Made by a program: the position numbers and the translations under genes. Below, in pieces: positions 1 through 23,804 of a DNA stretch of 23,804 bases. The stretch is from IMG/VR virus record IMGVR_UViG_3300028008_000105, positions 1 through 23,804 of that record; one strand, written 5' to 3'. The notes under the pieces are model-generated. The model saw nothing but the letters and a program-made list of their open reading frames with translations, ran no database searches and had not been told where the DNA came from. The stretch is from a virus. The first letter of the stretch is position 1. Each line of letters starts with the position of its first letter.

Positions 1-3000
1 ATCATCTGCCACATTAAAATATTCACCAGTAGCTCCAGGTATAAGCTGTTTAGTTATTTTATCTTTTTTAGTAGCAGCTGGATCAAGTATTCTATAATGA
101 AAGCCTAAGCCATCTAACCCTGTTATATTTATTATATCAGAGCCTAGCTTCATAGCTATTTTTTTAGAATCTTTAGCTAGCGCATCCTTAACTTGCTTAC
201 TACTAACTTTTGTAACTGCTTTTTTAGATAATTCTTTAATAGAATCTGGTATTATATTCGAAGACTTTATTCCTTTTAAAAATCCTAAAGTACCGAAATC
301 AACTATTAATCCTTCATTCCAAATTCTAGTCAATAGCTCTATAGATTCTTTTGAAACATTAGATAGATCGTCGTCTATAATATTTTTATCTTCTACTACG
401 TTATCGTATCCCTTGCTCTGTATTGCTCTAGTCAGCACACTTACTTCCTGCATTTGAGGCTGAGATATAGATCTTTTTACATTTCCTCTTTCAGCTTGTT
501 TATTAAATTCTTGAACGAAGTTATTGGACAGTTCTACTCCTAGTCTTTCTTGATTATCTTCAAAAGCTTTTCTTATCTCGCTACTACCATCATATAGCTC
601 TTGGCTGTATATATCAAAAGCATACTCTTCAGCTAGAGCTTTAGCTAACGCTTCTTTTCTACCTCTAATAACTTCATCACCTTTAAACATGTAAGTCAAG
701 AACTGCTCATTAGTGATTTTATTAGCAGCATTCGGTAGTCTTCTAACAAGTTGAGCGCCTGAAGTTCTACCTGCTTTATCAGTACCAACACTTTCACGAT
801 CTATTTTTTTACCTTCCCAGTCAGAAGTAAATTTACCATCAACAGACTTTTGAATAGCAAAAGGCATACCTTGCATAAGCCAAGTTGTGGTCATGTTTTC
901 AAGTATAGGCTTTTTAAGTTTTAAGAAGTTGTTTCTAAGTTCGCCACCACGTTTAGCTCCTAGCATTTTCTTAAACTCAATATCTGCTTGTTTACCTATC
1001 TCTTTCTTAATCTCAGACATTAAAGGTGTAACAGTCTTGTTTATAGACGTTGCAGCGTCGATGCGAGATTTAAGCGTTTTAGTTATAAGTAGTATTTTGT
1101 CTTTTACTTTTGCTACCATATCAGATGGTAACACGCTAGCTTCCACTAGGTTCTTATATTCAACTCTTGGAGCCTCAGTAGTTGTAGTTTCAGCTACAGG
1201 CTCTGCAACTTGTCTAGCTTCTTCTGTGTCTAAGCTTTCAGCTCGTCTTTCAGACTCTATGGCTAATTGTTTTTTAGCATCTAGCTTACTAAATCTAGTA
1301 TTAGCGAATATAAACTCACCAAAAGTAATTGGTTCACCGCTTTTAGTTTTTCTAACAGCTGCAGGATCATAGTTTATTAATCTATCAACTATTCCTTCAA
1401 GCATTAGCCCTGCTTCTTCTCTAGACAAAGCTCTAGAGTTAACATAGTTGTATATAGCTCCGCCTTGTTGTGTCGCTTCGTATATTGGGTTAAATATTTT
1501 AGCTCCTTGAAACTCTGCTTTTGTTTTTACATCTTTAGGTACTAAATTATTTATAGTATTCAGTATACTTGAAGATTTTTTAGTTTCTGGCTTTGCTTCT
1601 ATATCTTTTACGCTAGCTGCTTTATCTTTAGATAATAAGCTTTTAAAAACTTCGCTAGTTTCTACTGCAGCTACATCTTCTTTAGATAGTGTTCCATCTT
1701 TAATCTTTTCGGCCATATTAGTTATAAAGCCAACTATAGCTGGTTGAGTAGATAGATCTTCAGTTATACCAACTTCACTATTAAATAGTTGGCCCAACCT
1801 ATACATAAAACTTTTGCTTGATTTTTTAGTTTTATCTATTCTACCTATACGCTCCACAAAACCCATTATTATCTCCTCAGATAAAAAATTACCTGCTTTA
1901 TCTTTTTCAACTCTTTGGCCTACATTTCCGCTATCACTAAACATCTCAGAATATATCTCAGGCTGAGTTTCTTTAAGATACCCTGTTATTTCTTCAGCTA
2001 CTAAATCTATATTTAAATCTTTTTTTGCAATCCAGTCCCAAAATATTAAATGGCCAACTTCGTGCGTAGCTGTGCCTTCTCTTTCATTTTTTAACTGATT
2101 TTCTTCAGTTGTTACATACATGTACTTATCTCCAACACGTCCAGCTTGACCGTTGAGTCCACCTGTTTCAGCGTTAGCTAAACTATACCAAAAATTATTT
2201 TTATCTTTTGAATTTTTGCTAAGATCTATACCTTCTTCTTTCGCTTTTTTAATTGCAAACGCTTTAGCTTCTTTTTCAGTTTTAAATTCAAAAGCTTCAA
2301 AATCTAAGCCTACGTTTTTTAAAGCTTTTTTAGCATTCTTATTATTCGTTGATATTTCCTGTAACAAATATATATCGTAAGCTCTTTTATTTACTTTAGT
2401 TTTAGTTATCTCGGCACCTTCTTTAGCCAATTGTTCTGACGCTTGCTTATTTATTTCGTTGTATCTTTTTTCGTCAGTTGTTCTTAATAAATTGTACTTA
2501 TTAGCGTAATCTAATGGATTTCTAAATGCCTCTACATCTTGTTGAATTTTTTGATAATCTAAAGCTAGATCGTCTATCATTTTTTTACGCTGTGCTCTAG
2601 TTAGATCAGTATTATTTTTTATATTAAAAGCACTGCTTCTAAGTTCACCTTGCTTATTAATAGCATTTAAATATGCATCATAATTAGCCTTGTTCATCTT
2701 GTTAAGCCATCTGCCTTCAGCTTCTAACAGTTTATCTGATATAGTGTCTTGTAAGCTGTCAGCTTGTTTCTTCAAAGAACTAGCAGTGGCAGTATCTGAT
2801 ATACCTTCTAGTTGTTTTAATATTTCTTGTCTGTTACTAATTAAACCTTGTATCTCTGCTTTTTCTTCAGGATTCATAGACATGTTTAATGCTGCTCCCA
2901 TAGCAACACTACCTCCACCTAATCCAGCACCAAAAAATCCGCCTGAAAATGTAGCATGGCCAACTCCCTCCCATATGTTAGGGTTTCTAGTTATTAAGTT

Positions 3001-4815
3001 TTGTGTAAGTGTAGTTAAGCCTTCTGTTATAGATTCTCCAATACCACCAAGTGCAAATTCTTTAGCAAAAGGTTTACCAGCGTTTAAAGCTTTTTGGTAA
3101 AATGTTGTTGGTATAGGTTTTAAAAGACCTTTTCTTCCTTGTCTTATAAAAGTTTTAGTTGCATTGTTAAAAAATCTACTACCTAATACAAACGTAGGCA
3201 GAGAGCTTAACAAACCTTCTGCTGCACCAAATCCAGCGCCAGTTAAAAACTTATTTAAAGAAGTGTATTCTTTGTCATTGTATTCTAAGTTTTTACCATA
3301 TGCTTGTATATCATTATATTTACTTAGAAACTCTTCGTAAGTCATGTCTCCTATTTGCTGACCAGCGCTCAAAGTCCCTAACGACAAACCTGCTATTGCT
3401 CCAGAGGCCATTGGTGAAAATCCTAAAGCAGTTGCGGTTCCACCCGATGCAGCTATTAAGGCAAATATAGGCGCTTGCCTTCCAGTTTCTTCCACTATAA
3501 ATCTTCCAAAGTTGTCTAGGCTGTCAAAAGCCTTATCAAATGACACACCTTTTCTGTAACCTTCTCTAGCTTTTTCTCTAATTTTTCTTCTTTCCTGACC
3601 AAACGAAGCGACGCCAAACAAATCTTCTGGTCCTTCAACTCCTGACATTAATCCGGCTAATTGTCCAACGCCAGCTTCCGCAAATTCTAAACCTCCTAGC
3701 GCTAATCCTTCTAAAGTGCTTAAAGCGTTAAAACCAAATATATTTAATAAATCATGATCTCTTTTTAATACATCTAGCTCTTGAGAAGTGTCCATTAATC
3801 CTTCTGTTGCTTCAACAAATTTTTCGTACTCTTCGTACATCTGACTTTGCATACTACCCAACTCAGCTTGGTTTTTCTCGTAAATAGCATACTCTTCTTT
3901 ACTTATCAAGCCGGTAGTTTCAAATTGTTTTTCTATTTTTTTATTTTGAATATACCTTGCATCGTTTTGAAAAGAATCTATTTTTGCTTGTAGTTTTTCA
4001 ATGTCAATTTCTTTAGTAGTTTTTTGAAATTTTTCTTGCTGCTGCTCTACTTGCTCTTTTGCTGCTGCTTGTCTTCCTCTAGCTAAGCCAGCAACTGCTT
4101 TGCTGTACTCATCACTACCTACCTCAAAGCTTTCGTTTTGGTATTTTTTATATACAAAATAATCTTGAACTAACTCTTTAGGAGGATTTTCTCCTTCCCA
4201 ATTTCTAAATTGATCTGGAATTTTATTTAAAAGATTTTTCTGCTTAAGCTCTTTCATAGAATTAAAAGTAGCTTCGAGCTCTTCTTCGTAAGGCAATATT
4301 TCTTTTACAGTAGTTCTTCCACCACCACCGTAGCCATACGGATTGTATGTAGTTTTAGTATCAACTACTTTTTTAGGTTCAAATATACTTCTGTTTACAG
4401 ATCCGTCTTCTGAGTAATATTTACTTTTGAGATCTTCTTGTCCTTTTTTTACATTAGGGTTTATGTTTGGATCGTTTATTTCGTCTAATGTTAAATATAT
4501 AGTAGACCCGTCTTCTAATTCTACTTCTTGATCTGCAACATATCTATTACTTTTTACTTCTCTAGATTTAGGTTTGTATCCTCCGCCAAAACCATAGGGA
4601 TTGTAAAACTCTTGTACTTCTGCTGTAGCTTCTTCTACACCTTCTGGCTTTCTAACAGCTCCTTTTTCTCTATATTTATCATACGTGCCTGCTTGTGCTT
4701 GTGCTTGTTTCCACCAATATTTAGTATCATTTTGTTCAACACTATCAGTGTTGTTTTCTCGACTTTCTGTCGGTTCAGCTTCTTGTTTCCACCAGTAAAT
4801 ACTGTTGTTTGACAT
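1..4815 (-). CDS. Giant virion-type polyvalent protein with zincin-like metallopeptidase motif (C-terminus beyond window)
   Basis: The reading frame is open from the ATG at 4815-4813 to the left edge: at least 1605 residues with no stop, so the 3' end lies outside. Visible parts in order: an N-terminus with two YWWKQ copies (residues 7-11, 33-37) and two YNPYG(F/Y)GGG copies (71-79, 157-165); a charged, probably coiled-coil stretch (about 210-350); Gly/Ala-rich hydrophobic segments (about 448-485 and 618-645) that could insert in a membrane; then HEVGH at 918-922, preceded by GTAT and followed by LSEEIIMGFVERIG (978-991), where E980 or E981 may be the third zinc ligand. This fits a zincin metallopeptidase domain of the kind found in phage polyvalent proteins. 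The gene starts 6 bases after the upstream virion gene, so I infer an internal or ejected virion protein. Giant virion proteins of crAss-like phages can carry RNA polymerase domains; none is visible here. Substrate unknown. Confidence 0.72.
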   Translation of the reverse strand, partial: MSNNSIYWWKQEAEPTESRENNTDSVEQNDTKYWWKQAQAQAGTYDKYREKGAVRKPEGVEEATAEVQEFYNPYGFGGGYKPKSREVKSNRYVADQEVELEDGSTIYLTLDEINDPNINPNVKKGQEDLKSKYYSEDGSVNRSIFEPKKVVDTKTTYNPYGYGGGGRTTVKEILPYEEELEATFNSMKELKQKNLLNKIPDQFRNWEGENPPKELVQDYFVYKKYQNESFEVGSDEYSKAVAGLARGRQAAAKEQVEQQQEKFQKTTKEIDIEKLQAKIDSFQNDARYIQNKKIEKQFETTGLISKEEYAIYEKNQAELGSMQSQMYEEYEKFVEATEGLMDTSQELDVLKRDHDLLNIFGFNALSTLEGLALGGLEFAEAGVGQLAGLMSGVEGPEDLFGVASFGQERRKIREKAREGYRKGVSFDKAFDSLDNFGRFIVEETGRQAPIFALIAASGGTATALGFSPMASGAIAGLSLGTLSAGQQIGDMTYEEFLSKYNDIQAYGKNLEYNDKEYTSLNKFLTGAGFGAAEGLLSSLPTFVLGSRFFNNATKTFIRQGRKGLLKPIPTTFYQKALNAGKPFAKEFALGGIGESITEGLTTLTQNLITRNPNIWEGVGHATFSGGFFGAGLGGGSVAMGAALNMSMNPEEKAEIQGLISNRQEILKQLEGISDTATASSLKKQADSLQDTISDKLLEAEGRWLNKMNKANYDAYLNAINKQGELRSSAFNIKNNTDLTRAQRKKMIDDLALDYQKIQQDVEAFRNPLDYANKYNLLRTTDEKRYNEINKQASEQLAKEGAEITKTKVNKRAYDIYLLQEISTNNKNAKKALKNVGLDFEAFEFKTEKEAKAFAIKKAKEEGIDLSKNSKDKNNFWYSLANAETGGLNGQAGRVGDKYMYVTTEENQLKNEREGTATHEVGHLIFWDWIAKKDLNIDLVAEEITGYLKETQPEIYSEMFSDSGNVGQRVEKDKAGNFLSEEIIMGFVERIGRIDKTKKSSKSFMYRLGQLFNSEVGITEDLSTQPAIVGFITNMAEKIKDGTLSKEDVAAVETSEVFKSLLSKDKAASVKDIEAKPETKKSSSILNTINNLVPKDVKTKAEFQGAKIFNPIYEATQQGGAIYNYVNSRALSREEAGLMLEGIVDRLINYDPAAVRKTKSGEPITFGEFIFANTRFSKLDAKKQLAIESERRAESLDTEEARQVAEPVAETTTTEAPRVEYKNLVEASVLPSDMVAKVKDKILLITKTLKSRIDAATSINKTVTPLMSEIKKEIGKQADIEFKKMLGAKRGGELRNNFLKLKKPILENMTTTWLMQGMPFAIQKSVDGKFTSDWEGKKIDRESVGTDKAGRTSGAQLVRRLPNAANKITNEQFLTYMFKGDEVIRGRKEALAKALAEEYAFDIYSQELYDGSSEIRKAFEDNQERLGVELSNNFVQEFNKQAERGNVKRSISQPQMQEVSVLTRAIQSKGYDNVVEDKNIIDDDLSNVSKESIELLTRIWNEGLIVDFGTLGFLKGIKSSNIIPDSIKELSKKAVTKVSSKQVKDALAKDSKKIAMKLGSDIINITGLDGLGFHYRILDPAATKKDKITKQLIPGATGEYFNVADD
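4321..4605 (-). repeat. Two copies of a YNPYG(F/Y)GGG motif
   Basis: Residues 71-79 (plus-strand positions 4579-4605) and 157-165 (4321-4347) of the giant protein encode YNPYGFGGG and YNPYGYGGG. They lie in the low-complexity N-terminal part, downstream of the YWWKQ pair. No function is known to me. The conserved aromatic/glycine pattern suggests flexible adhesive or docking segments. Confidence 0.7.
4705..4797 (-). repeat. Two copies of a YWWKQ-encoding repeat
   Basis: Two 15-base units at 4783-4797 and 4705-4719 differ at one base (ttgtttccaccagta and ttgtttccaccaata on the plus strand). Both encode YWWKQ, 26 residues apart, at the extreme N-terminus of the giant protein. The aromatic-basic motif is separated by an acidic, disordered-looking linker. 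It may be a short binding or packaging signal; that role is inference. Confidence 0.75.
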
Positions 4816-4821
4816 AATATT

Positions 4822-6090
4822 TTATTTGTTTTTATTTAAAAAGTAGTCAGTTACACTAAAATCGCTTCTACCACCTGTTTCAAATGACTTTTCTGGCATT
4901 TTACCATCTAACCAAACGTCGTCAAAGCTTATCCCCATTTTAATTGCCAACTCGTCTAGTAAAACTAGTTTTTGATCGTCATCTATATTTTCATTATTAA
5001 GTATTGCGTTAAATTCAAGAGGATTTCTAGATTCTAAAAATTCTGTGGCTTGCTTAGGAGTTAGCTGCATACCGTCGTAAGATATTGTTTTCGATGCTTT
5101 ATCCGCGTCAGCACTGTCTTTACTGTTTTTACTGTTTTTATTACCACCTTTAGTAGGTACAGTTTTTCTTTTAGAGCCATAGCCTTGTTTAGAATTTTCA
5201 ACTAAAGCTTCCATGTATTTGTTCACTACTACGTCTCTAAGATCTTCAAAACTAATATCACCGCCTTTGTAAGCATCAACGTTTTGTGCAACCATAGGAT
5301 CATCTATCATTCTAACACCACCTATTAACCCATCGTAAACTACTGACATTAAAGAGTTTCTGCCTCCTTGATCTATACCTAATGTTAATTGATTTGCGTA
5401 TTGATTATATTTAACACCACCTGGTTGAAGAATTATACCAGCGTTGTACACTTGATCGCCCATCTTTAGCATTCCTTGAGCTAATTTGTAATCTTTAACT
5501 TCGTAACCAGGTAAATTATTTAAACCCACCATTCCATCATCGCCTGCAAAGCTAACGTTACCGTATTCATCTATACTTAAATCAAACTCCTCGTTATACA
5601 CACTTCTTAGCATATTTACGTTAGCTTGATTTTCTGGAGAAAGAGATGTAGATTGATTCTGTATGTTACCTATTATCTCTTTTTTATTTTCCCCGTACAT
5701 CTTCATTTGAGAATTAAGTGTTTCAAACGAACCTCTTATTTGATTCATTTGATTTGTTATATCCATATACATTTCACTACCTACTTCGTACTCATTAACT
5801 TGGTTAGCTAAGTTTACGTAGTTCTGTTTTTGAGTCATTAGGAAGTTAGATATACTATTTCTATATTTATCTGGTATTCCACCTAGGTCTACGTCTGCTG
5901 GTAGTTTATTTAAATATTTTGCAAGTTGATCTTCATAATTGTTTTTTACAGCCTTAGCAGGATCTGTTATTTGAGTGTTACCAAACTTGCTTGCTTGAAC
6001 CAATCCTTTATTGAAAGCAGTACCTACATCTAGAAACTTACCGTAAAGATATGGATTTTGTGCGTTTTTTATTAATTGATCGTCTGTCAT
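4822..6090 (-). CDS. Putative internal virion (ejection) protein, 422 aa
   Basis: This is a hydrophilic, mostly helical-looking protein with no signal peptide and no transmembrane segment that I can see. The N-terminal half (about 30-160) is rich in Asn/Gln and looks coiled-coil-like. A more ordered central part (about 170-300) follows, then a basic low-complexity linker near 305-335 with tandem KNS units, and a C-terminal helical region. Its ATG overlaps the stop of the upstream gene by one base (TAATG), indicating translational coupling, and the giant protein begins 6 bases after its stop. I recognise the general type from uncultured marine phage structural clusters, but no biochemical function is known. 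The role as an internal or ejected virion protein is inferred from its position between a glycine-zipper protein and the giant protein. Confidence 0.6.
   Translation of the reverse strand: MTDDQLIKNAQNPYLYGKFLDVGTAFNKGLVQASKFGNTQITDPAKAVKNNYEDQLAKYLNKLPADVDLGGIPDKYRNSISNFLMTQKQNYVNLANQVNEYEVGSEMYMDITNQMNQIRGSFETLNSQMKMYGENKKEIIGNIQNQSTSLSPENQANVNMLRSVYNEEFDLSIDEYGNVSFAGDDGMVGLNNLPGYEVKDYKLAQGMLKMGDQVYNAGIILQPGGVKYNQYANQLTLGIDQGGRNSLMSVVYDGLIGGVRMIDDPMVAQNVDAYKGGDISFEDLRDVVVNKYMEALVENSKQGYGSKRKTVPTKGGNKNSKNSKDSADADKASKTISYDGMQLTPKQATEFLESRNPLEFNAILNNENIDDDQKLVLLDELAIKMGISFDDVWLDGKMPEKSFETGGRSDFSVTDYFLNKNK
5113..5139 (-). repeat. Three tandem 9-bp units encoding KNS/KDS
   Basis: The plus strand reads actgtcttt, actgttttt, actgttttt in direct succession. 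On the coding strand the units give K-N-S or K-D-S triplets inside a charged linker of the 422-residue virion protein. Length variation by replication slippage would stay in frame. Confidence 0.65.
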
Positions 6091-6755
6091 TATTTTTCTG
6101 CTTTAGCTGTTAGTTCACCTATTTGTGCAAATTGAGGAGCTAGTGATCCTGCTATTTGTCCTACACCTCCTATTATTGCTTGCTTAGCTTGCTCTCTAGC
6201 CATATTCGCTGCACCTAATCTTCCTTGCGCCATACCCAATAATGTATTGGTTTTTTGCTGCTGCATTTTTCTAGAGATAAGCTGTCCTTCTCTATCCATA
6301 GTTTGTAATTGTCCAGCCATGCCTCTTTCGGCCATTAGGTTAGATCTTTCTTGCTGACCTATATCTACTGCTGCTGCTTGAGCTGATTGAGCTTGCTGCT
6401 GCGCCATAGCTTGTGCTAAGCCAGCTATACCACTTCCACCAGCCGCTCCTGCAAACTGATCCATTATATTAGCTTGTCCTTGCGCTTGTTGTTGCGCTGC
6501 AAAGTCTGCTGCTTGTGTATTTACCGTAAGATCTTCGTACACGTTCTCCATGTTAGCATACGGGTTAGAAGTGTCACGAGCTTCTAATTGAGCTTTGTAC
6601 ATGTTGAACTCTCCTTGTGCTTGCTGTTGCTCTCTTCTTCTTTGCTTGCTCCCAATTATACCGCTAGCAATACCAGCGATACCTCCTATAACGCCAGCTG
6701 AACCTCCTGCTATTACAGCTGGGTCTAATATCTTTAATGGTGATTTTTTACTCAT
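6090..6755 (-). CDS. Small internal virion protein with glycine-zipper membrane segment, 221 aa
   Basis: Residues 13-35 form a glycine/alanine-rich hydrophobic stretch (AVIAGGSAGVIGGIAGIASG and onward), a classic glycine-zipper transmembrane segment. A basic KQRRR patch follows at 37-41. The rest is Gln/Ala-rich helix (QQQAQ runs, about 43-60, 85-130 and 160-195), with a second hydrophobic patch near 190-205. This layout recalls small ejection proteins of podoviruses such as T7 gp14, which insert in the host outer membrane; the resemblance is in architecture, not a proven homology. The gene is 28 bases after the upstream small virion gene and overlaps the next gene by one base. It probably acts with the two following proteins in genome delivery. 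Confidence 0.6.
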   Translation of the reverse strand: MSKKSPLKILDPAVIAGGSAGVIGGIAGIASGIIGSKQRRREQQQAQGEFNMYKAQLEARDTSNPYANMENVYEDLTVNTQAADFAAQQQAQGQANIMDQFAGAAGGSGIAGLAQAMAQQQAQSAQAAAVDIGQQERSNLMAERGMAGQLQTMDREGQLISRKMQQQKTNTLLGMAQGRLGAANMAREQAKQAIIGGVGQIAGSLAPQFAQIGELTAKAEK

Positions 6756-9638: not shown

Positions 9639-12600
9639 TTATTGTACTATTATTTCTATTTCTCTATCTTCTGGATCTGATATATTGTTTATATACCCTA
9701 AACCTTGAACTGAATACTCTCTTGTATCTAAATTATTGAAAGTATTATCGGTTCCTAATATATTGTAAAACCACTTACCTTCTTTATCTTTGAATGTTTT
9801 AACTTGTCCACTTTGTAAGTCAGACTCTATAGAATCTACCCACCAACCACTCTTAGCTAACCTGTTTTCAAACTTATTGTCGGTGTCAGGATTGTCAACA
9901 AATACTCTAGCTTGCGATCCTTCGTAGTTTAAAGTTTTGAATGATTTAACAGAGCCGGGTGCATCGTTGAATATAAATTTTACAGAAGAGTCATATTGAA
10001 TTCCATAGAAGTTATTTCTAACTTCATTGTCGTGCGACCATATCTCACCTTTATTAAAAGTATAGTATATATTGTTTAAAGAAATACCGCTTTCTTGTAT
10101 AAAACTTTTTCTAGTATTCCAACCGTTTACGTCTTCTTTGAACGAAACAGTATCGTTGTACTTAGACGCGTCAACAAGTTTTCCTTTGTTGTCTTTAGAG
10201 CCTACGCTACTCGATAGAGTAAGATTGTATTCATCTTTATTTTCATCATAACTACCTACGGCCTTTATGTTAGACACAGATAATTGGTCTCTAAAATAGT
10301 CTTCCATACCATACTTAGATATTGGTGTCAAGCCATTGCCAGAAAGCCTTAGTATAACACCTCTATTTTTATCTGAGAAGTATGCTCTGTTTCCATACCT
10401 AGCATATGACTCTGGATTCTTACTTATACCATAGTCTCCAGCATAAGGTTGTATTGCTCCTAACACGTTTGTACTTGATACTATATTTTTACTACCATCA
10501 GCGTTAAACAAAGCGTCTCTGTCTGCTAGAACTTTGACAACGTTGTCTTCTAAGTACACGTCTAAATCGCCTAGTCTAAATTGCATAAGCTGTATAGATC
10601 CGTACGATGGATTTATAGATTTAGTTATTTGTTCAGCTTGTATAAATTGATTTAAATTGTTTATACCCGACGTTGAGTTGTATATGCCAGAGTATATAAT
10701 ATCAGATTTTTTACGTACTTCTTTGTATTGACCTTCTATTGGTGCTGAAGCCCTAACGCCTTTCCCTAATATAGGTGCGTTGAAATCGTCTCTAATTCTA
10801 TCTGACTCAACACCATTTCCAAAAGTAAAGCAATTAGAGTATACTAATCCTTGAGAATTACCAAAAGAATCTTTACTATAAGCACCACTAGCTTCATAAT
10901 ATATATCTAGTTCAGCTACTTCAAGAGGTTCTGTTTCGAAAACTGCAGGATTTTCAGATGTAAATTCATTTGTTTCTTCTTCAAACTCTGCTACAAATTC
11001 AAGATTGGTAAACAGGCTGTCAGCTGGCATTTCGCCTCTGTTTGCGTTTGTGTCAACAAAGCCATTATCTTCCGGTGACCAATCTATAGGTTTGTCCAAT
11101 TTTAACGTAAATTGAATTACTCTTTGCGTAGGTTCTTTTCCTTTGCCCCAAGCTATATGGTAATGCTTGCAATATTTCTCTATAGTGTATATATTTTTAC
11201 TGTTTTTTGGAGCTCCGGAGAATCTAAACTTAGATCCTTTTCTCATGATTTGTCCGACAATTGGATTCATCTCTGGGCGATAGTCAGAGCTTTGGTTTAC
11301 GTCTGCAAACTTGTTGTATGCAGCCTCGGTATAGCCGCTATCGTATTCTCCCCAGCCTTGGTAAGCTATTTCTATAATATCCCACCCACTCTTAACACCA
11401 TGGCCTGGTGATACTTCTCTTGAATATCCAGAGGTGGAACCATTGTCAGACTTTATTACTTTCTTTTTTAGCCAATATTGATCGTCTATTGCGTTTGCAG
11501 ATTTAGAAAACTTTTGTTCAGCGAACTGCGTTCTATTTATAAACCAACCTAAGTTTCTATTACCTCCTTTATCAGGAGCTGCTATCACCCATTCGAATTT
11601 AGGAGGATCAGCTGGATCCGAGGTGTCTTCGTAGTTTTGAACCCTGTATTTACTCCAAAAGTCCTCTCTGTTAAAACCAAGCATGCTAGGGCCGGCTTGT
11701 ATTATTTTTTGAGAGCTTTTAACTAAAAGTTCTGAGTTTGGTATGTTTTTAGGGATTATATAACTTTCTAATACAACGTCTCTCTGCAGCTTCGCAAAGA
11801 ATCTTCCTTGGAACTCTGGCTTGGCTTTAGTTATTTTTTGAAACACCTCTATAGAAACTGTGGGATTGTCTTCGTCATAAATAGCCATCCAAGAAACGTC
11901 TTCTAAATCTAAAACTTTTTCTAAATTTAGTCTATATAGATTAAAGTTTTCGAAGTACTGAACACTAGCTATTTCATAGTTCTTTGTTTTGTTTTTATCA
12001 GAAAATATAACAATATTTAAATCGTTTAATTGATGCACTGGCATGCCTGAAGATACGCTACTACCTACGCCTCCATACGTGCTTTGCCATAAATCAGAAC
12101 GTATATCTATGAATTTATTGCCCGACAAAGGATAACCTTCTGCTGTTTTAAATATATTTTTTGTTCCACCAAGTATGCTTTGCGATAATACACCTTTAGA
12201 TACATTCTCATTTTTTATAAAATCAGGTGCTTCATTCTCTATTGCTAAAACCTTATATTTGGCTTCGTCTTTAACAAAGTTGTTAGAGTCGTGCTCTTTC
12301 TTCAATGTTAAAAATGTTTCTTCGTTAACCTTATTTCTATCAGAACTTGAAAAAGCAATCCATAAATTACCATCTTCAGCAGCGTAATATCTATCCATTG
12401 CGACATTGTAGTACGGCTGAGATGTTTCTTTTATATAGTACTTAAAAGTCTCCATACCATCTGGCATTCCAGCTGGGCTTTCTATGCGAACTCTAAAATT
12501 GTTTCTTGTAGACGAAAACCCTTTGTTCAAAGTTATAGAGCCTGTCTTGTCTGTTATAACCGGAGTTTCTCTTCCGTACTTATCTCTAAATACTACACCT

Positions 12601-14189
12601 AATTGGTATGTTCTTTGAGACTTTATAGATTTGCTAGGTCTGTCTTTTCTAGCATCGCTACCTACTACGCTTACTGCAAATTTTAAAGATATATCTTTAC
12701 CCTCGTATTTTAAGTTGTAATTTTCTAAATAATTACCAAACAACAACCTGTTACCAGATACAGATACTGCTTTGGCTTTTCTAGGCACGTTATCATACGG
12801 TCTAAGTATTTGGTTAGATGGTATTACTTTATATATAGTCTCAGACGTAATTTCAAGCTTACCAAAATATAGATCAGGATAAGTTCCTATATCGTGAAAC
12901 TCGGAGTTTGTATCTGTTGCGTCTATACTTTCAACGACATATATATTGTTAGATACAGAGTCTTTGTAAAGTATATCTACTTCCACAACTCCATACGGTA
13001 CAGATGTGGGAATAGCCCAATCAACTATCTCTAGCTTTCTTAGTTGGTTAACCATGCCTAAGTTATACCCTTTTCTATGGTCATAATTAAACTCATCACC
13101 TAAAAAAGCCACCTCGCTAAAAGGAGATATAGTAGAGTACTCACCATCTTTATATTTGTATCTATAAGCAAATCTTACGAACTTAGTTTCAAACATTGCT
13201 GGTTTTTGTATTAACTCTACTTTCCAGTTTTGTATTCCTTGCTCTATGTTTACATCTACGGCGTCTACGTTTACTTTAAAAACCTTAGGTGCTGTTGCGT
13301 ATGTCTCTAATACGGATAGTATAACTTCGGCATCGTTATCTGCATCTTGTCCTTTGTCGTCAAGCAAAGTTACTTTAAGTTTATCGCCTACTCTAAAGTC
13401 TGGAGCAGTTCCGCTAAATTCTACTTGGCTATCTACGGGGTTTGGTAGGATTTGGCTCGCAGCATCAGCAGTCCCGTCACCATCTTGGTCAGTATACTCT
13501 CCAGTAGGCACTGTCTGCCATCTACCATCTACATCAAGAAACGTAAATGAATAACCACCTGTTGCTGGTATAGTTAACGGAGCGTTAAGTCTGGCAGAAA
13601 TGGGTCCGCTTCTAGTAGTATTAGACATTCTTAAGCCGGGAGCATTTTTTGGGCCTTCTTTTATAACTGTACAGTGTTTTTCTTCAAAATTACCTCCATC
13701 TACTTGTGTATGCGTCCATAAGCCATTAGCGTACTCTCTCCAGTCTGAAACTTTTATCATTTTTGGTTCTGACCTATTGTCAGTCCAAATTAAAAAATCA
13801 TCTAGTATCTCTATGCCAGTTATCAAGTTGTCTCTATCAAACCCTAAAACCCTTCTTGTGTCTACTATAATAGGTTTAGCTTCGCCTTTAAGCTGATTAA
13901 ACTCTACTACAAGATTCTTATTGTTAGAAACGACAAACCAATATATGCACTCAGTTTCATCTCTTCTTATAGATCCTATTACTTTTGGAAAATCGCCTAA
14001 ATTAGAAACTATACTATCTGCGTATGGTAGTTTGTTGCCTAATATATTTTGCAAAGCACCAACGTCAGCACCTTCAGACGTAGACACTTGAACATTCAAT
14101 GCATCTCTATATTTACCGTTAGGCAATAGTCTCTCATCGAGGTCTTTGTTCATAGCGCCTCCGCTAAACGTTCTTTTCAATTCTGCCAT
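9639..14189 (-). CDS. Very large tail-stabilisation/muzzle-type tail protein, 1516 aa
   Basis: The N-terminus carries a conserved block, PNGKYRDALN (23-32) then SEGADVGALQN (38-48). I associate it with the P22 gp10-like tail stabilisation proteins of crAss-like and marine podoviruses, where such proteins form the distal tail tube or muzzle. The rest is beta-rich. A DxDxDGxxD calcium-loop-like motif sits at 234-242, inside an inserted region of about 190-310. A late block from about G1251 (GDYGISKNPESYARYGNRAY) resembles a propeller-like or receptor-proximal repeat. No transmembrane segment is seen. It starts two bases after the stop of the upstream connector-like gene and is the largest complete gene in the window. 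The family call rests on remembered motifs and position, so it is likely rather than proven. Confidence 0.68.
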   Translation of the reverse strand: MAELKRTFSGGAMNKDLDERLLPNGKYRDALNVQVSTSEGADVGALQNILGNKLPYADSIVSNLGDFPKVIGSIRRDETECIYWFVVSNNKNLVVEFNQLKGEAKPIIVDTRRVLGFDRDNLITGIEILDDFLIWTDNRSEPKMIKVSDWREYANGLWTHTQVDGGNFEEKHCTVIKEGPKNAPGLRMSNTTRSGPISARLNAPLTIPATGGYSFTFLDVDGRWQTVPTGEYTDQDGDGTADAASQILPNPVDSQVEFSGTAPDFRVGDKLKVTLLDDKGQDADNDAEVILSVLETYATAPKVFKVNVDAVDVNIEQGIQNWKVELIQKPAMFETKFVRFAYRYKYKDGEYSTISPFSEVAFLGDEFNYDHRKGYNLGMVNQLRKLEIVDWAIPTSVPYGVVEVDILYKDSVSNNIYVVESIDATDTNSEFHDIGTYPDLYFGKLEITSETIYKVIPSNQILRPYDNVPRKAKAVSVSGNRLLFGNYLENYNLKYEGKDISLKFAVSVVGSDARKDRPSKSIKSQRTYQLGVVFRDKYGRETPVITDKTGSITLNKGFSSTRNNFRVRIESPAGMPDGMETFKYYIKETSQPYYNVAMDRYYAAEDGNLWIAFSSSDRNKVNEETFLTLKKEHDSNNFVKDEAKYKVLAIENEAPDFIKNENVSKGVLSQSILGGTKNIFKTAEGYPLSGNKFIDIRSDLWQSTYGGVGSSVSSGMPVHQLNDLNIVIFSDKNKTKNYEIASVQYFENFNLYRLNLEKVLDLEDVSWMAIYDEDNPTVSIEVFQKITKAKPEFQGRFFAKLQRDVVLESYIIPKNIPNSELLVKSSQKIIQAGPSMLGFNREDFWSKYRVQNYEDTSDPADPPKFEWVIAAPDKGGNRNLGWFINRTQFAEQKFSKSANAIDDQYWLKKKVIKSDNGSTSGYSREVSPGHGVKSGWDIIEIAYQGWGEYDSGYTEAAYNKFADVNQSSDYRPEMNPIVGQIMRKGSKFRFSGAPKNSKNIYTIEKYCKHYHIAWGKGKEPTQRVIQFTLKLDKPIDWSPEDNGFVDTNANRGEMPADSLFTNLEFVAEFEEETNEFTSENPAVFETEPLEVAELDIYYEASGAYSKDSFGNSQGLVYSNCFTFGNGVESDRIRDDFNAPILGKGVRASAPIEGQYKEVRKKSDIIYSGIYNSTSGINNLNQFIQAEQITKSINPSYGSIQLMQFRLGDLDVYLEDNVVKVLADRDALFNADGSKNIVSSTNVLGAIQPYAGDYGISKNPESYARYGNRAYFSDKNRGVILRLSGNGLTPISKYGMEDYFRDQLSVSNIKAVGSYDENKDEYNLTLSSSVGSKDNKGKLVDASKYNDTVSFKEDVNGWNTRKSFIQESGISLNNIYYTFNKGEIWSHDNEVRNNFYGIQYDSSVKFIFNDAPGSVKSFKTLNYEGSQARVFVDNPDTDNKFENRLAKSGWWVDSIESDLQSGQVKTFKDKEGKWFYNILGTDNTFNNLDTREYSVQGLGYINNISDPEDREIEIIVQ

Positions 14190-19706: not shown

Positions 19707-22133
19707 TTATCTTGGATCAAAAGCATTTAATCCAAAACCGCCACCCATTATATCATTACCCGATGACTCGAAGTTTTTAGGTGGACTTTCTTTTTTTCTT
19801 TGATCTATTAATTCAGATTGCTGTGTAGCTTGAATTTTAGTTCTTTCATCTTTACGATCTTCTTTTTGTGATTCACGTTCTTTTAGTATTTCAGTTTCCA
19901 TTTGCTTTAACTGCATGTTTAACTTAAACTCGTGATTCATTAATTCCTTTTTAAGCATGGCCTCTTGTTGCATTTTCTGCATCTCCATTTGGATCTTGCC
20001 TTGCTCTACTTGTATCTTGCTTTGCGATAATGCTTGATTTTTCTGCACTTCTGCTTGAGCAGCTACTTGCTGTGCTTGTGCGTTTGCTTGAGCTTGAGCT
20101 TGGATGTTTTGTTGTTGCATTAACTGGTCTTGCTGTGCTTTCTTTTTCCTTCTTATCTTAAGAACTTGATTAGCAAGCTTTATGTTTTTAATTTCTCTAA
20201 CATCTATAGCATCTTCTAACTCTATACCATTTTTGGCTAATGCTACTTGAATATTGTTTTCAAGCATTTGCTTTTGCTCTTCGTCTGGTGCTAGGTCAAT
20301 AAATATACCAAAGTCGTATAAATGCAGATCGCTCATTTCTCTAAGAGTGGCTACATTGTGTCCACCTATCTTCTGTATAAAGGCATCTTTAGTTGGTGAG
20401 TACTCTATAATATCAGATATTCTTAATGATATAGACTCGGCCAACTCAGCTGTTAAAAATAATCCACTTTGCAATATGTGCCTTGTAGCAGTATTTGAAT
20501 TAGCGGCTGCCATTTTTTGTATACCTACTAAAGCGTTCTTATCTGGAGTACTACCATCACGCGCCTCGTTCAATCCGGTGACATCTCTTATCATTTGTAG
20601 GTAGTAGTTATATGTTTGTATCAGTGAAGCTAATTTAGCTCCTCCTGAGCCGCTCTGTATCTCCTGAATAGGTACTTTACCTGGATTCATATCTCCGTCA
20701 GCAGTCATCGATCTACCAATTATACTACCTGTTTGGAAGAACATGTTTAATGCTTCTTGCGGATTGTAGTTTGTGCCGTTACCTAAATCTATTTCAGCTA
20801 AGCCATCAGCGTCTAAATATATACCATCAGGTATCATACGTGACATTACTTGTTGCAGCTTTAAGTGCGTCAACTGTATCATGTCAGCAAAAGTAGTTAT
20901 CCTGCTTACTAGCGACTCTATACGGCCTTTATACATTCTTGGCGCCACTATTGAATAATTCATTTTAACCTTAGTGTAGTCACTTTTAGGTCTCATCATA
21001 TTTTTAGCTAGCTCCCATTTCAAAAGTTGCTTAGTGCCTAAAATCATAGCTCCTTCATAAAGAACTTCTATCTGCTTAGACATTTTGCCAAATCTCTCTT
21101 CTAGTAGCTCATTAGGTGGGTTGAATTGATCGTCTTTAACTATAACCTTACTAGCACCAGTAGAAGTTTCTTTTACTTTGTATACTTCGTTAGCATAAGT
21201 TTTGAAATTAAAGTATAATACTTGAACTTGATTCCTGTCTATATTAGTAGACTCGACTATGCTTCTATTGTAAAAGCCAGTGTTTTGATAACCCTGCTTA
21301 CTCATTGTTTCTAAATCCTTATCAGTAAGATCTGGAAATTCTTTCTTAAGCTCATTAATAGGTATTGTCTTAATTTCACCTACGTAATATAAATCATCAA
21401 AATATGGCGATTCAGTATATGAATAAACTATATTTGCCGGGTCAACGTAATCTACTTTAACTCCCTCAGACTTTGTAAAAGTATTTTTTACAGCGCCGAT
21501 GCCCAGAACAGTTAAATCGTAGTTGATTCTTTTTCTTATAAGCTCATACCTATTACCTTCAAGTATAGTGTTTATAGCTTGCTCTTCAGCTAGCTCTACT
21601 GCTTGCTTGTAATTTAGCTGCATGTGAAGCTGTAGTTCTTCTTCACTATCTGGCAACTTTTCTGGAGGTGTGCTTGCTATCGATATTCCGAAAGCTTCTT
21701 GTGAAAACTCGTTTAAGTCTCTAGTTTTCATGTCAGCTATAATATCTTCCATATATTTAGTTCTTTTAGAAACTCCATATGGATCTTGAGAATATGCTTT
21801 TATATCAAATGTTCTTTCTGATATTCCGTTAACCACTATGTCAACGAATTTAGGTATGATAGGAATAGGCTTCCAGTCTAAGTTTAAATAACTTAAGTCA
21901 CCATTAATTGATAACTCATCTTTATATTTTTGTATTGATTGTTCTCCTCTGGCATATAGTCTTAACTTGTGAAAAGTGTTTTGATTACTAGCGAAACGAT
22001 TAGTTCCAGAATCTCTATTGAACCATTCGTATTCAATAGCTTTACCGATCTTAAGACCGTATTCTTCTGAAGCTTTCTCTATGTCGCTAACGACTTGACT
22101 AGGAAAATAATGTGATGTAACTGACTCAGCCAT
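19707..22133 (-). CDS. Portal protein, 808 aa
   Basis: The gene starts one base after the terminase stop codon and precedes the scaffold and capsid genes. Its length fits the large portals of crAss-like and P22-type phages. Recognisable blocks are LYARGEQSIQKYKDEL (about 54-69), PIIPKFVDIVVNGISER (about 90-106), the LTVLGIGAVKN segment (about 206-216) and the long helical stem and clip region. The C-terminus (about 665-790) is a very Gln-rich coiled coil (QQQNIQAQAQANAQAQ) with alternating basic/acidic heptads, followed by a short glycine-containing tail. The portal forms the dodecameric DNA entry pore at one vertex and docks the terminase motor. No frameshift or internal stop is seen. Confidence 0.82.
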   Translation of the reverse strand: MAESVTSHYFPSQVVSDIEKASEEYGLKIGKAIEYEWFNRDSGTNRFASNQNTFHKLRLYARGEQSIQKYKDELSINGDLSYLNLDWKPIPIIPKFVDIVVNGISERTFDIKAYSQDPYGVSKRTKYMEDIIADMKTRDLNEFSQEAFGISIASTPPEKLPDSEEELQLHMQLNYKQAVELAEEQAINTILEGNRYELIRKRINYDLTVLGIGAVKNTFTKSEGVKVDYVDPANIVYSYTESPYFDDLYYVGEIKTIPINELKKEFPDLTDKDLETMSKQGYQNTGFYNRSIVESTNIDRNQVQVLYFNFKTYANEVYKVKETSTGASKVIVKDDQFNPPNELLEERFGKMSKQIEVLYEGAMILGTKQLLKWELAKNMMRPKSDYTKVKMNYSIVAPRMYKGRIESLVSRITTFADMIQLTHLKLQQVMSRMIPDGIYLDADGLAEIDLGNGTNYNPQEALNMFFQTGSIIGRSMTADGDMNPGKVPIQEIQSGSGGAKLASLIQTYNYYLQMIRDVTGLNEARDGSTPDKNALVGIQKMAAANSNTATRHILQSGLFLTAELAESISLRISDIIEYSPTKDAFIQKIGGHNVATLREMSDLHLYDFGIFIDLAPDEEQKQMLENNIQVALAKNGIELEDAIDVREIKNIKLANQVLKIRRKKKAQQDQLMQQQNIQAQAQANAQAQQVAAQAEVQKNQALSQSKIQVEQGKIQMEMQKMQQEAMLKKELMNHEFKLNMQLKQMETEILKERESQKEDRKDERTKIQATQQSELIDQRKKESPPKNFESSGNDIMGGGFGLNAFDPR

Positions 22134-22134
22134 A

Positions 22135-23804
22135 CTAATTTTCTATTATTTTTGAATTGTAGCCCGCATTTGCATACTTGACTATATTTAAATTTACTTT
22201 CTTTTTCTCTATACTTTGTTTGGGCGAATACAAATGCCTGTTGCAAGCCATTATGGCTAATCCAGAACTTATCGTGGCATCAAACTTGGTTCTTCTATTT
22301 ATGTCAAACTTAGCCCAATCGTTCAAAGTTTCGTTGAAAGGCATAGAACCAAAACCTTCGTTCTTTTCGCCTACATGGTCATTTATATACATTTCTATAG
22401 CAGCTGCGTGAGCTTGCTTTATGTCTTCACTTGAGTTTGGCATACCACCGATCTCTCTTTCTGTCACAGATAACTTATTCCATACTTTATCTGGTCTATT
22501 CATAGAGAAGCCTCTGTAACCTCTTCTTTTAAAGTAATACAATAATCTTGGCTTATTATTCTCAGCCAATATTGGCATGCCGTAGAATATGCAAGCCATT
22601 AGTACATCTTCAAAAAATATTTCAGCAGTTTGTGGTCTTGCTATATATTCTAAAAAGAACTCATTAGCTGGTGCATCTTCCATACTAAACTTTGTAAGAC
22701 CATGAAGTGATCCCTTAGAACCTTTACCATCAACAGTGCCTGATATATCGTAAGAGTCACAACCAAACGCCCCTACGTGCTCGTTGCCAGGGTGTTTTAC
22801 ATTATTTTTTATTACAACTCTATTTTGTAAGTTACTAGGTGGCACCCAACTAACTTTAAACCTACCTTTCTGATTTGGCATAAATACTACTTTAGTGTCT
22901 TTAACTCCGTTTAGCCACTGAAAGTTTCCAACAGTCAAATCAACTGTTTCCTCGTTATAATCTATTTGCTCGTATATTTTAGTTAAGTTAAATATACTAT
23001 TTTTAGTTTCGTCTCTAAAAGCGTGCTCTTCAGTTCTAGGAAACTGTCTATAAAACTCATTTAATGCGTCTTGATCTGACTTCAAGCCCTCAGCTTCATT
23101 CTGCCAATGGCTAAGTACACCTACGTCGATTATATCTCCATGTGGATCAATAACTTCTCGTTCAGGTGTTTCGAACACAGGTAGTCCATAAGAATCAATG
23201 AATCCCTCGTAGTTCCATTCCATAGGTATGAACAAAGAATAGAGGCCCGAATTTGTCTGTCCATTTCTGTTTCGTTTTGTAACATCTGAATTATTGTAAA
23301 GTTTTTTGAATTCGTTACCACCTTTATCTAATGCGTTGCTGGTTGAACCCATCATGCATTTACCAATAACTCTACTACCTAATCTAAGACAGGTCTTAGT
23401 GACTCGCCAATTATTTAAAATATTGTTAGGTCTTTCCCACTTACCGCTCTCGTCGTGTACTAACAGTCTTAATTTTTCACCGTCATAACTGTTATCACCT
23501 GTATTTTTCCAATCTATGGTTGTATCCAGTCCATCGAGTTCCTCAGGTTTGTCGGTGCTAGTAATGTTCCGTCTTGTAAGTTTAGAAGCGGGGACTCTGT
23601 ACGCAAGCTCGGTCTTTGGTCTGTCCATCCCGTCCTGTATTGGTTTAAAAAAGAATGGATAATTGACTGATATTGGTACAACTTTATCTGTGAACATTTT
23701 CTTGGCGTCTGGTCCAGATTTGGACAATATTCCGAATCGTGCATCTGAACTAATAGTTGCTTGATTAACAGTTTCTCCTGACGCCATAAATGAGAATCCT
23801 GATC
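22135..23804 (-). CDS. terL: Terminase large subunit (N-terminus beyond window)
   Basis: The frame stays open to the right edge. The first in-window ATG (23787) is preceded in frame by SGFSF, so the true start and the Walker A region are missing. Numbering from that Met: Walker B is LRLLVHDE at 106-113, the coupling motif GSTSN at 147-151, and the FYRQFPRTEEHAFRD block follows near 245. The C-terminal RNase H-like nuclease shows GCDSYD (D344 or D347), LAENN (E409) and TKFDATISSG (D503) as candidate metal ligands. The protein pumps DNA into proheads and cuts the concatemer. No small terminase gene is visible, and the portal gene follows after one base. The stop is TAG. Confidence 0.88.
   Translation of the reverse strand, partial: SGFSFMASGETVNQATISSDARFGILSKSGPDAKKMFTDKVVPISVNYPFFFKPIQDGMDRPKTELAYRVPASKLTRRNITSTDKPEELDGLDTTIDWKNTGDNSYDGEKLRLLVHDESGKWERPNNILNNWRVTKTCLRLGSRVIGKCMMGSTSNALDKGGNEFKKLYNNSDVTKRNRNGQTNSGLYSLFIPMEWNYEGFIDSYGLPVFETPEREVIDPHGDIIDVGVLSHWQNEAEGLKSDQDALNEFYRQFPRTEEHAFRDETKNSIFNLTKIYEQIDYNEETVDLTVGNFQWLNGVKDTKVVFMPNQKGRFKVSWVPPSNLQNRVVIKNNVKHPGNEHVGAFGCDSYDISGTVDGKGSKGSLHGLTKFSMEDAPANEFFLEYIARPQTAEIFFEDVLMACIFYGMPILAENNKPRLLYYFKRRGYRGFSMNRPDKVWNKLSVTEREIGGMPNSSEDIKQAHAAAIEMYINDHVGEKNEGFGSMPFNETLNDWAKFDINRRTKFDATISSGLAIMACNRHLYSPKQSIEKKKVNLNIVKYANAGYNSKIIEN

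Follow-up and report, generated by a model that had tools for sequence, protein, structure and literature searches.

A giant gene of a marine phage distantly related to crAss-like phages encodes a predicted zincin and recurrent Lys-x-Ser motifs at candidate processing sites

Introduction

The closest described counterparts of the protein studied here are the phage polyvalent proteins (Iyer et al. 2017, PMC5512222), which it resembles in being giant, multidomain and encoded in a late block of virion genes. The zincin is the commonest domain of these proteins and, according to a proposal of 2017, cleaves the polypeptide in which it lies; the part of that paper used here describes no cleavage site and makes no mention of a recurrent, co-varying joint motif. 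The polyvalent zincin core consists of strands, a helix with HEXXH and a later helix with a Glu, with variable inserts between them (PMC5512222). Another counterpart is the virion RNA polymerase (vRNAP) of phage N4, a giant ejected protein whose C1 domain combines a hairpin with an HExxH zincin-type domain (PMC12633501). This polymerase enters the virion without being cleaved, and its encapsidation requires the region surrounding the MPTase domain (PMC5512222). Large cargo (gp45-gp50) is also present in the muzzle-bearing virion of PhicrAss001, to which we liken the present protein by description; the text of that paper mentions no protease, peptidase or zincin (PMC10172136).

Herein, we analysed the IMG/VR virus record IMGVR_UViG_3300028008_000105, a stretch of 23,804 bases (hereafter, the window). 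A first-pass annotation had singled out its open-ended gene as encoding a zinc protease of undescribed function. Such a function has been described in part: zincins in phage polyvalent proteins, and the possibility that they process their own polypeptide, are already on record (PMC5512222). This family of giants, its very conserved domain, here named 'GKQADI', and the co-varying joint motif are new, in that they were not found in the open-access literature searched.

Results

Virus identity and gene order

The window comes from a marine bacterial virus with a distant relation to crAss-like phages. Its terminase, portal and head genes matched PHROGs families, and its terminase large subunit was 38% identical to that of Cellulophaga phage phi38:1. 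The predicted muzzle protein, of 1516 residues, scored above the family cutoff of PF25729, the muzzle feature of Crassvirales; given the families of the nearest isolates, we do not claim membership in the order. By muzzle, these isolates were Maribacter phage Panino, Cellulophaga phages phi38:1, phi40:1 and phi19:3, and Flavobacterium elemo phages, which are classed as Pervagoviridae, Pachyviridae and unclassified flavophages. The muzzle gene was used to reach them because tblastn with the whole giant gave nothing among isolate phages at E 0.01, and a relative used as the query likewise gave nothing.

The order terminase, portal, ..., muzzle, smaller genes, giant is common to the window and these isolates. 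In the window, the muzzle gene is followed by two smaller genes and then by the giant (Table 1), which has a late-gene setting of portal, muzzle and structural neighbours. The function of the 422-aa neighbour is suggested by gene order, and the 221-aa neighbour is putatively ejection-type. The syntenic giants of phi38:1 (1691 aa), phi19:3 (1871 aa) and an elemo phage (3694 aa) are annotated as structural, the label in phi38:1 being by similarity according to its record. The initial reading that the giant adjoins ejection-type genes is in agreement with this, cultured relatives having a structural-annotated gene at the same position. The syntenic giant of Panino (L014:26712-32201) carries the annotation 'tRNA methyltransferase', which looks doubtful given the genomic position of the gene.

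Table 1. Features of the window, with positions, strand and evidence
Feature	Position	Strand	Evidence
Giant multidomain (polyvalent-type) protein, probable virion cargo	1..4815	-	ORF, complete relatives, synteny
KRSIS, residues 1447-1451, predicted processing site after the GKQADI domain	463..477	-	Joint motif
'GKQADI' domain, very conserved, residues 1225-1446	478..1143	-	Alignment A4; 119 IMG/VR contigs
KKSSS, residues 1079-1083, tentative processing site between zincin and GKQADI domain	1567..1581	-	Counterparts in relatives
Zincin-type metallopeptidase domain (predicted), residues ~885-1062	1630..2163	-	Conservation; AlphaFold model m61880007d85b
E981, predicted third zinc ligand	1873..1875	-	Sole further invariant residue
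HEVGH active-site motif, residues 918-922	2050..2064	-	H, E, H invariant in 67 distinct segments
N-terminal core, residues 310-720	2656..3888	-	Homologous to phi38:1 gp101 and syntenic flavophage giants
422-aa neighbour, position of medium-size gene phi38:1 gp100 (annotated structural)	4822..6090	-	Synteny; direct similarity marginal
221-aa Gly/Ala-rich neighbour, position of virion protein phi38:1 gp099	6090..6755	-	Synteny; pairwise blastp E 2e-5
Muzzle protein (crassvirus muzzle C-terminal domain)	9639..14189	-	PF25729 E 5.2e-11; phrog_14478 E 1e-146
Portal protein	19707..22133	-	phrog_6547 E 4e-155
Terminase large subunit, 5' end probably cut	22135..23787	-	phrog_6681 E 4e-128, profile positions 195-755

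The giant gene and its relatives

As had been noted at first, the giant is an open frame of at least 1605 residues, which runs on the minus strand from an ATG at 4815 to base 1 without a stop, its 3' end missing. Full-length giants in relatives have ~2500-3400 residues, and we estimate the same for the window protein. A direct search for relatives of the giant found 11 loci. With the GKQADI domain as the query, 119 IMG/VR contigs were reached, 80 of which were analysed (L042-L121), near-identical copies included. The window giant matched no curated family, and we claim no membrane helix for it because no 19-residue segment scored above 1.5 in a hydropathy scan.

The N-terminal core was aligned with the isolates' core by hhalign (A3 vs A9, probability 96.4, E 1.2e-9) and with phi38:1 gp101 by blastp with SEG (4.8e-8, five-sequence set). 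Thus, phi38:1 gp101 and phi19:3 gp129 resemble the window giant in position, homologous N-terminal core and structural annotation. However, they have neither HExxH nor the joint motif described below. The Flavobacterium elemo giant (L015) occupies the same locus and has a homologous zincin (hhalign against the window family, 96.9%, E 1.8e-10), but the GKQADI domain was not detected in it by tblastn and the joint motif is absent.

In L072 (12009-12061) and L007 (12814-13532), the giant is split into overlapping frames in comparison with close relatives, probably by a frameshift or an assembly error. The complete ORFs of these two loci are shorter than the range given above. A contig from Manatee Spring (L016:29334-40913) encodes a giant of 3859 aa that contains two HEFGH motifs and is annotated as 'reticulocyte binding/rhoptry protein'.

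Conservation and predicted fold of the zincin domain

The HEVGH motif and the acidic block after it, both reported in the first-pass annotation, were located in the window giant; the block, LSEEIIMGFVERIG, spans residues 978-991 and contains the conserved E981. In the wide search, HExxH was present in the giant at 79 of 80 loci. The remaining locus, L084, has none because its 5' end is cut: it starts 228 bases before the GKQADI match, and the zincin region is missing. Every relative in which the zincin region is covered carries HExxH. Among 67 distinct zincin segments, the only columns conserved at 100% were H, E, H and a downstream E, and the same four columns were the only invariant ones in alignment A8 (62 sequences), most members of which are 11-20% identical to the window zincin. 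Homologues had been suggested as a check of the motif, and both His and the Glu are conserved in all 67 segments. The composition of the window giant, with 5 His, predicts 0.0015 HExxH, and the motif arose in 28 of 20,000 shuffles. Homology carries far more weight than these statistics, and, judged from the aligned sequences, HEVGH is an active-site signature and not a chance occurrence.

An AlphaFold model of the zincin from 62 sequences (pLDDT 75.7, pTM 0.71) contains, in model numbering, a beta-hairpin at 46-57, HExxH in a helix at 71-88 and the Glu (E137) in a helix at 135-144. The predicted fold thus has the arrangement of a zincin; a fold without a zinc site, the outcome that had been named as contrary to the protease reading, was not seen. 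The model also matches the core of the polyvalent zincins, in which an HExxH helix is joined by a Glu in a later helix (PMC5512222). The window zincin was placed in none of the 12 published clades, the N4 type alone having been compared (PMC5512222).

Foldseek with the zincin-only and two-domain models against PDB and BFVD gave no significant match. Every match of the zincin model had an E of at least 0.9, and anthrax lethal factor, a zincin at rank 2, was set aside as evidence (E 1.9). A solved-structure profile search with the zincin found nothing, and no library family was matched above threshold. Peptidase_M78 was a weak match in 6 of the 62 members (best E 0.026), and NCBIfam and PHROGs gave scattered weak matches, with phrog_4415 'peptidase' at 1.7e-4 in one member. 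The claim of a zinc protease is upheld for an active site of HExxH and a distant Glu, to which conservation and the model point, and we infer catalysis and presence in the virion.

In comparison with N4, hhalign aligned the vRNAP domain weakly with the window zincin family (20%, P 0.0011), with hairpin and HExxH in register; the P for an unrelated profile was 0.18. In 17 relatives searched with Pfam and PHROGs, no RNA polymerase family was found, the T7-like module of the N4 type included. The window family differs in this from N4 vRNAP, which is moreover packaged uncleaved.

The GKQADI domain and C-terminal modules

The GKQADI domain (~220 residues) lies C-terminal to the zincin. In relatives, it is 49-92% identical to that of the window, vs 10-40% in other regions. 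It matched no known family, and no relatives of it were found in isolate phages or GTDB genomes. The window giant stops before the C-terminal modules, which are known from relatives. There, several unrelated domains occur per giant, namely the zincin, the GKQADI domain, a HAD-type motif and a P-loop kinase or zeta-toxin-like module. The HAD-type DFDDT motif was found in the C-terminal third of the giant in 24 of 67 relatives, and in others a P-loop kinase (zeta-toxin or polynucleotide-kinase-like) module sits in the place of the HAD-type module. A weak LPD14 match was obtained in one relative. These extra modules (kinase, HAD-like and the one weak LPD14 match) are a further likeness to the polyvalent proteins (PMC5512222). 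Residues 2116-2209 of the giant of L010 have a Pfam match, at cutoff, to the T6SS immunity protein Tgi2PP (E 6e-6).

A Lys-x-Ser motif at the joints between modules

A Lys-x-Ser motif is found repeatedly C-terminal to the zincin, at places where one module gives way to an unrelated one. It was spotted by eye and defined after sequence inspection, and the counts that follow are not independent because family members are related. The site after the GKQADI domain reads ERGNVKFSKSL, and sites lie immediately ahead of the HAD-type module (AASIKFSKNPKGISVFDFDDTLA), the P-loop kinase (PSVKFSISKPTAVFMVGGPGSGKSS) and the C-terminal module (QQAKIKFSKGLNKSLNKMIERNKNV). In the 67 distinct giants, [VIA]K[FY]S occurred 98 times vs 16.8 in shuffles (maximum 29), and 32 giants had at least two occurrences (1.8 expected). 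The form K[FYW]S[KRSLM][STGA] was counted 74 times in 176,317 residues of the giants, vs 6.8 expected (maximum 12 in 40 shuffles), an enrichment of ~10-fold over shuffles. The other ORFs of the same loci showed no enrichment of this form (1 in 172,829 residues vs 5.2 expected).

To limit the weight of close relatives, one representative was taken for each of 20 clusters, giving a motif count of 27.1 vs 5.8 expected. With the post-GKQADI site removed, the count was 14.6 vs 5.8, the lowest draw (10) overlapping the shuffle maximum (11). The representatives had 15 sites besides the post-GKQADI one, and none in the 17,603 residues ahead of the zincin. These counts omit 14 of the 80 loci, which the GKQADI regular expression used for clustering did not match, and one of the clusters is probably spurious because the expression matched the wrong place in L045 and probably also in L044.

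In several lineages (K[FYW]S, KRS, KAS or KSS), the joints within a protein change their residue x together, and the codons used are often unrelated. The lineage of the window has KRS at three joints (NIKRSVS, AAKRSYS and QRKRSMS in L042), L065 has KAS at two joints and L097 has KSSIAP at two joints. When the post-GKQADI joint was paired with other joints, x was of the same class in 46 of 65 pairs, whereas the mean of a permutation test, which ignores phylogeny, was 28 and the maximum of 5000 permutations was 38. Sites were picked as a nearby [KR]x[SN], which was at times the wrong neighbour (e.g. in L058, L113 and L114); such wrong picks should lower the agreement rather than raise it. Of 41 proteins with more than one serine site, 24 used both TCN and AGY serine codons. 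A DNA-level recombination linker as the origin of the motif was disfavoured, since the joints use different codons.

In the window giant, KRSIS is the predicted site. KKSSS, with counterparts KKSVS in L049 and KKSIS in L048, is a weaker candidate and is proposed tentatively. The pattern suggests that the joint motif marks self-processing sites. It is absent from the zincin-bearing elemo and Manatee Spring giants, in which no equivalent repeated motif rose above shuffles, and these HExxH giants count against a general link between zincin and motif.

Discussion

On balance, we lean towards the view that the giant is virion cargo of the polyvalent type, with a competent zincin that cuts its own polypeptide at Lys-x-Ser joints downstream. 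From gene order and homology, the giant would be packaged and then ejected with the DNA. From invariance and the predicted fold, His918, His922 and Glu981 would bind zinc, with Glu919 as the general base. Cleavage at the Lys-x-Ser sites may free the GKQADI domain, a HAD-type phosphatase or P-loop kinase module and the conserved C-terminal module, releasing separate activities during assembly or after ejection; we infer that the cleaving protease is the zincin. Three roles had been offered in the first-pass annotation, and virion self-processing fits best because of the joint motif; cutting of the wall and attack on the host are without specific support. A narrower proposal, in which we have somewhat less than even confidence, is that this self-cleaving virion polyprotein has Lys-x-Ser sites that co-evolved with the protease specificity of each lineage, so that the joints switch together (F/Y/W, R, A or S). 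The packaging of N4 vRNAP in unprocessed form counts against self-processing (PMC5512222), and the lack of a significant Foldseek match to a solved zincin and the weak matches in family libraries count against the preferred explanation as a whole.

If the joint motif is a cleavage site, synthetic peptides and point mutants offer a direct test of the 2017 proposal. In the zincin, one would then have a phage protease that cuts at a defined site and occurs naturally with several specificities, and the giant would show how one cargo protein splits into several early-infection activities.

The zincin could instead be an effector, injected to cleave a host protein such as a defence or transcription factor, with the joint motif unrelated to it. 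Such a role is among those considered possible for these domains in polyvalent proteins (PMC5512222), and the fast divergence outside the active site is as in host conflict. However, no specific sign of a host target was seen, and shared joints that vary in concert solely downstream of the protease would be left unexplained, which makes an effector unlikely in our view.

It is rather unlikely that Lys-x-Ser is a binding or packaging signal, or a linker for module exchange, and that the zincin serves mainly in encapsidation. The example of N4 vRNAP, in which the region around the MPTase domain is required for encapsidation of an uncleaved protein (PMC5512222), speaks for it, as do the zincin-bearing giants that have no motif. 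The strict retention of four catalytic residues is contrary to a purely structural role, and the use of different serine and arginine codons from joint to joint is contrary to recently copied DNA linkers.

Cutting of the host cell wall for DNA passage is very improbable. T7 gp16 carries a wall-cutting domain, and the gene order of the locus resembles that of gp16. But the known HExxH gluzincins are, to our knowledge, peptidases of proteins, most of the phage peptidases that act on peptidoglycan belong to other types (e.g. M15 and M23), and neither a peptidoglycan-binding nor a transglycosylase domain was found in relatives. That HExxH is a chance or vestigial motif, as a giant without a curated family might suggest, is hardly credible when its four residues are kept in all homologous segments and composition alone so rarely yields it.

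The other ORFs of L042-L121 seem poorer in K[FYW]S[KRSLM][STGA] than expected (1 vs 5.2), possibly reflecting avoidance of the site.
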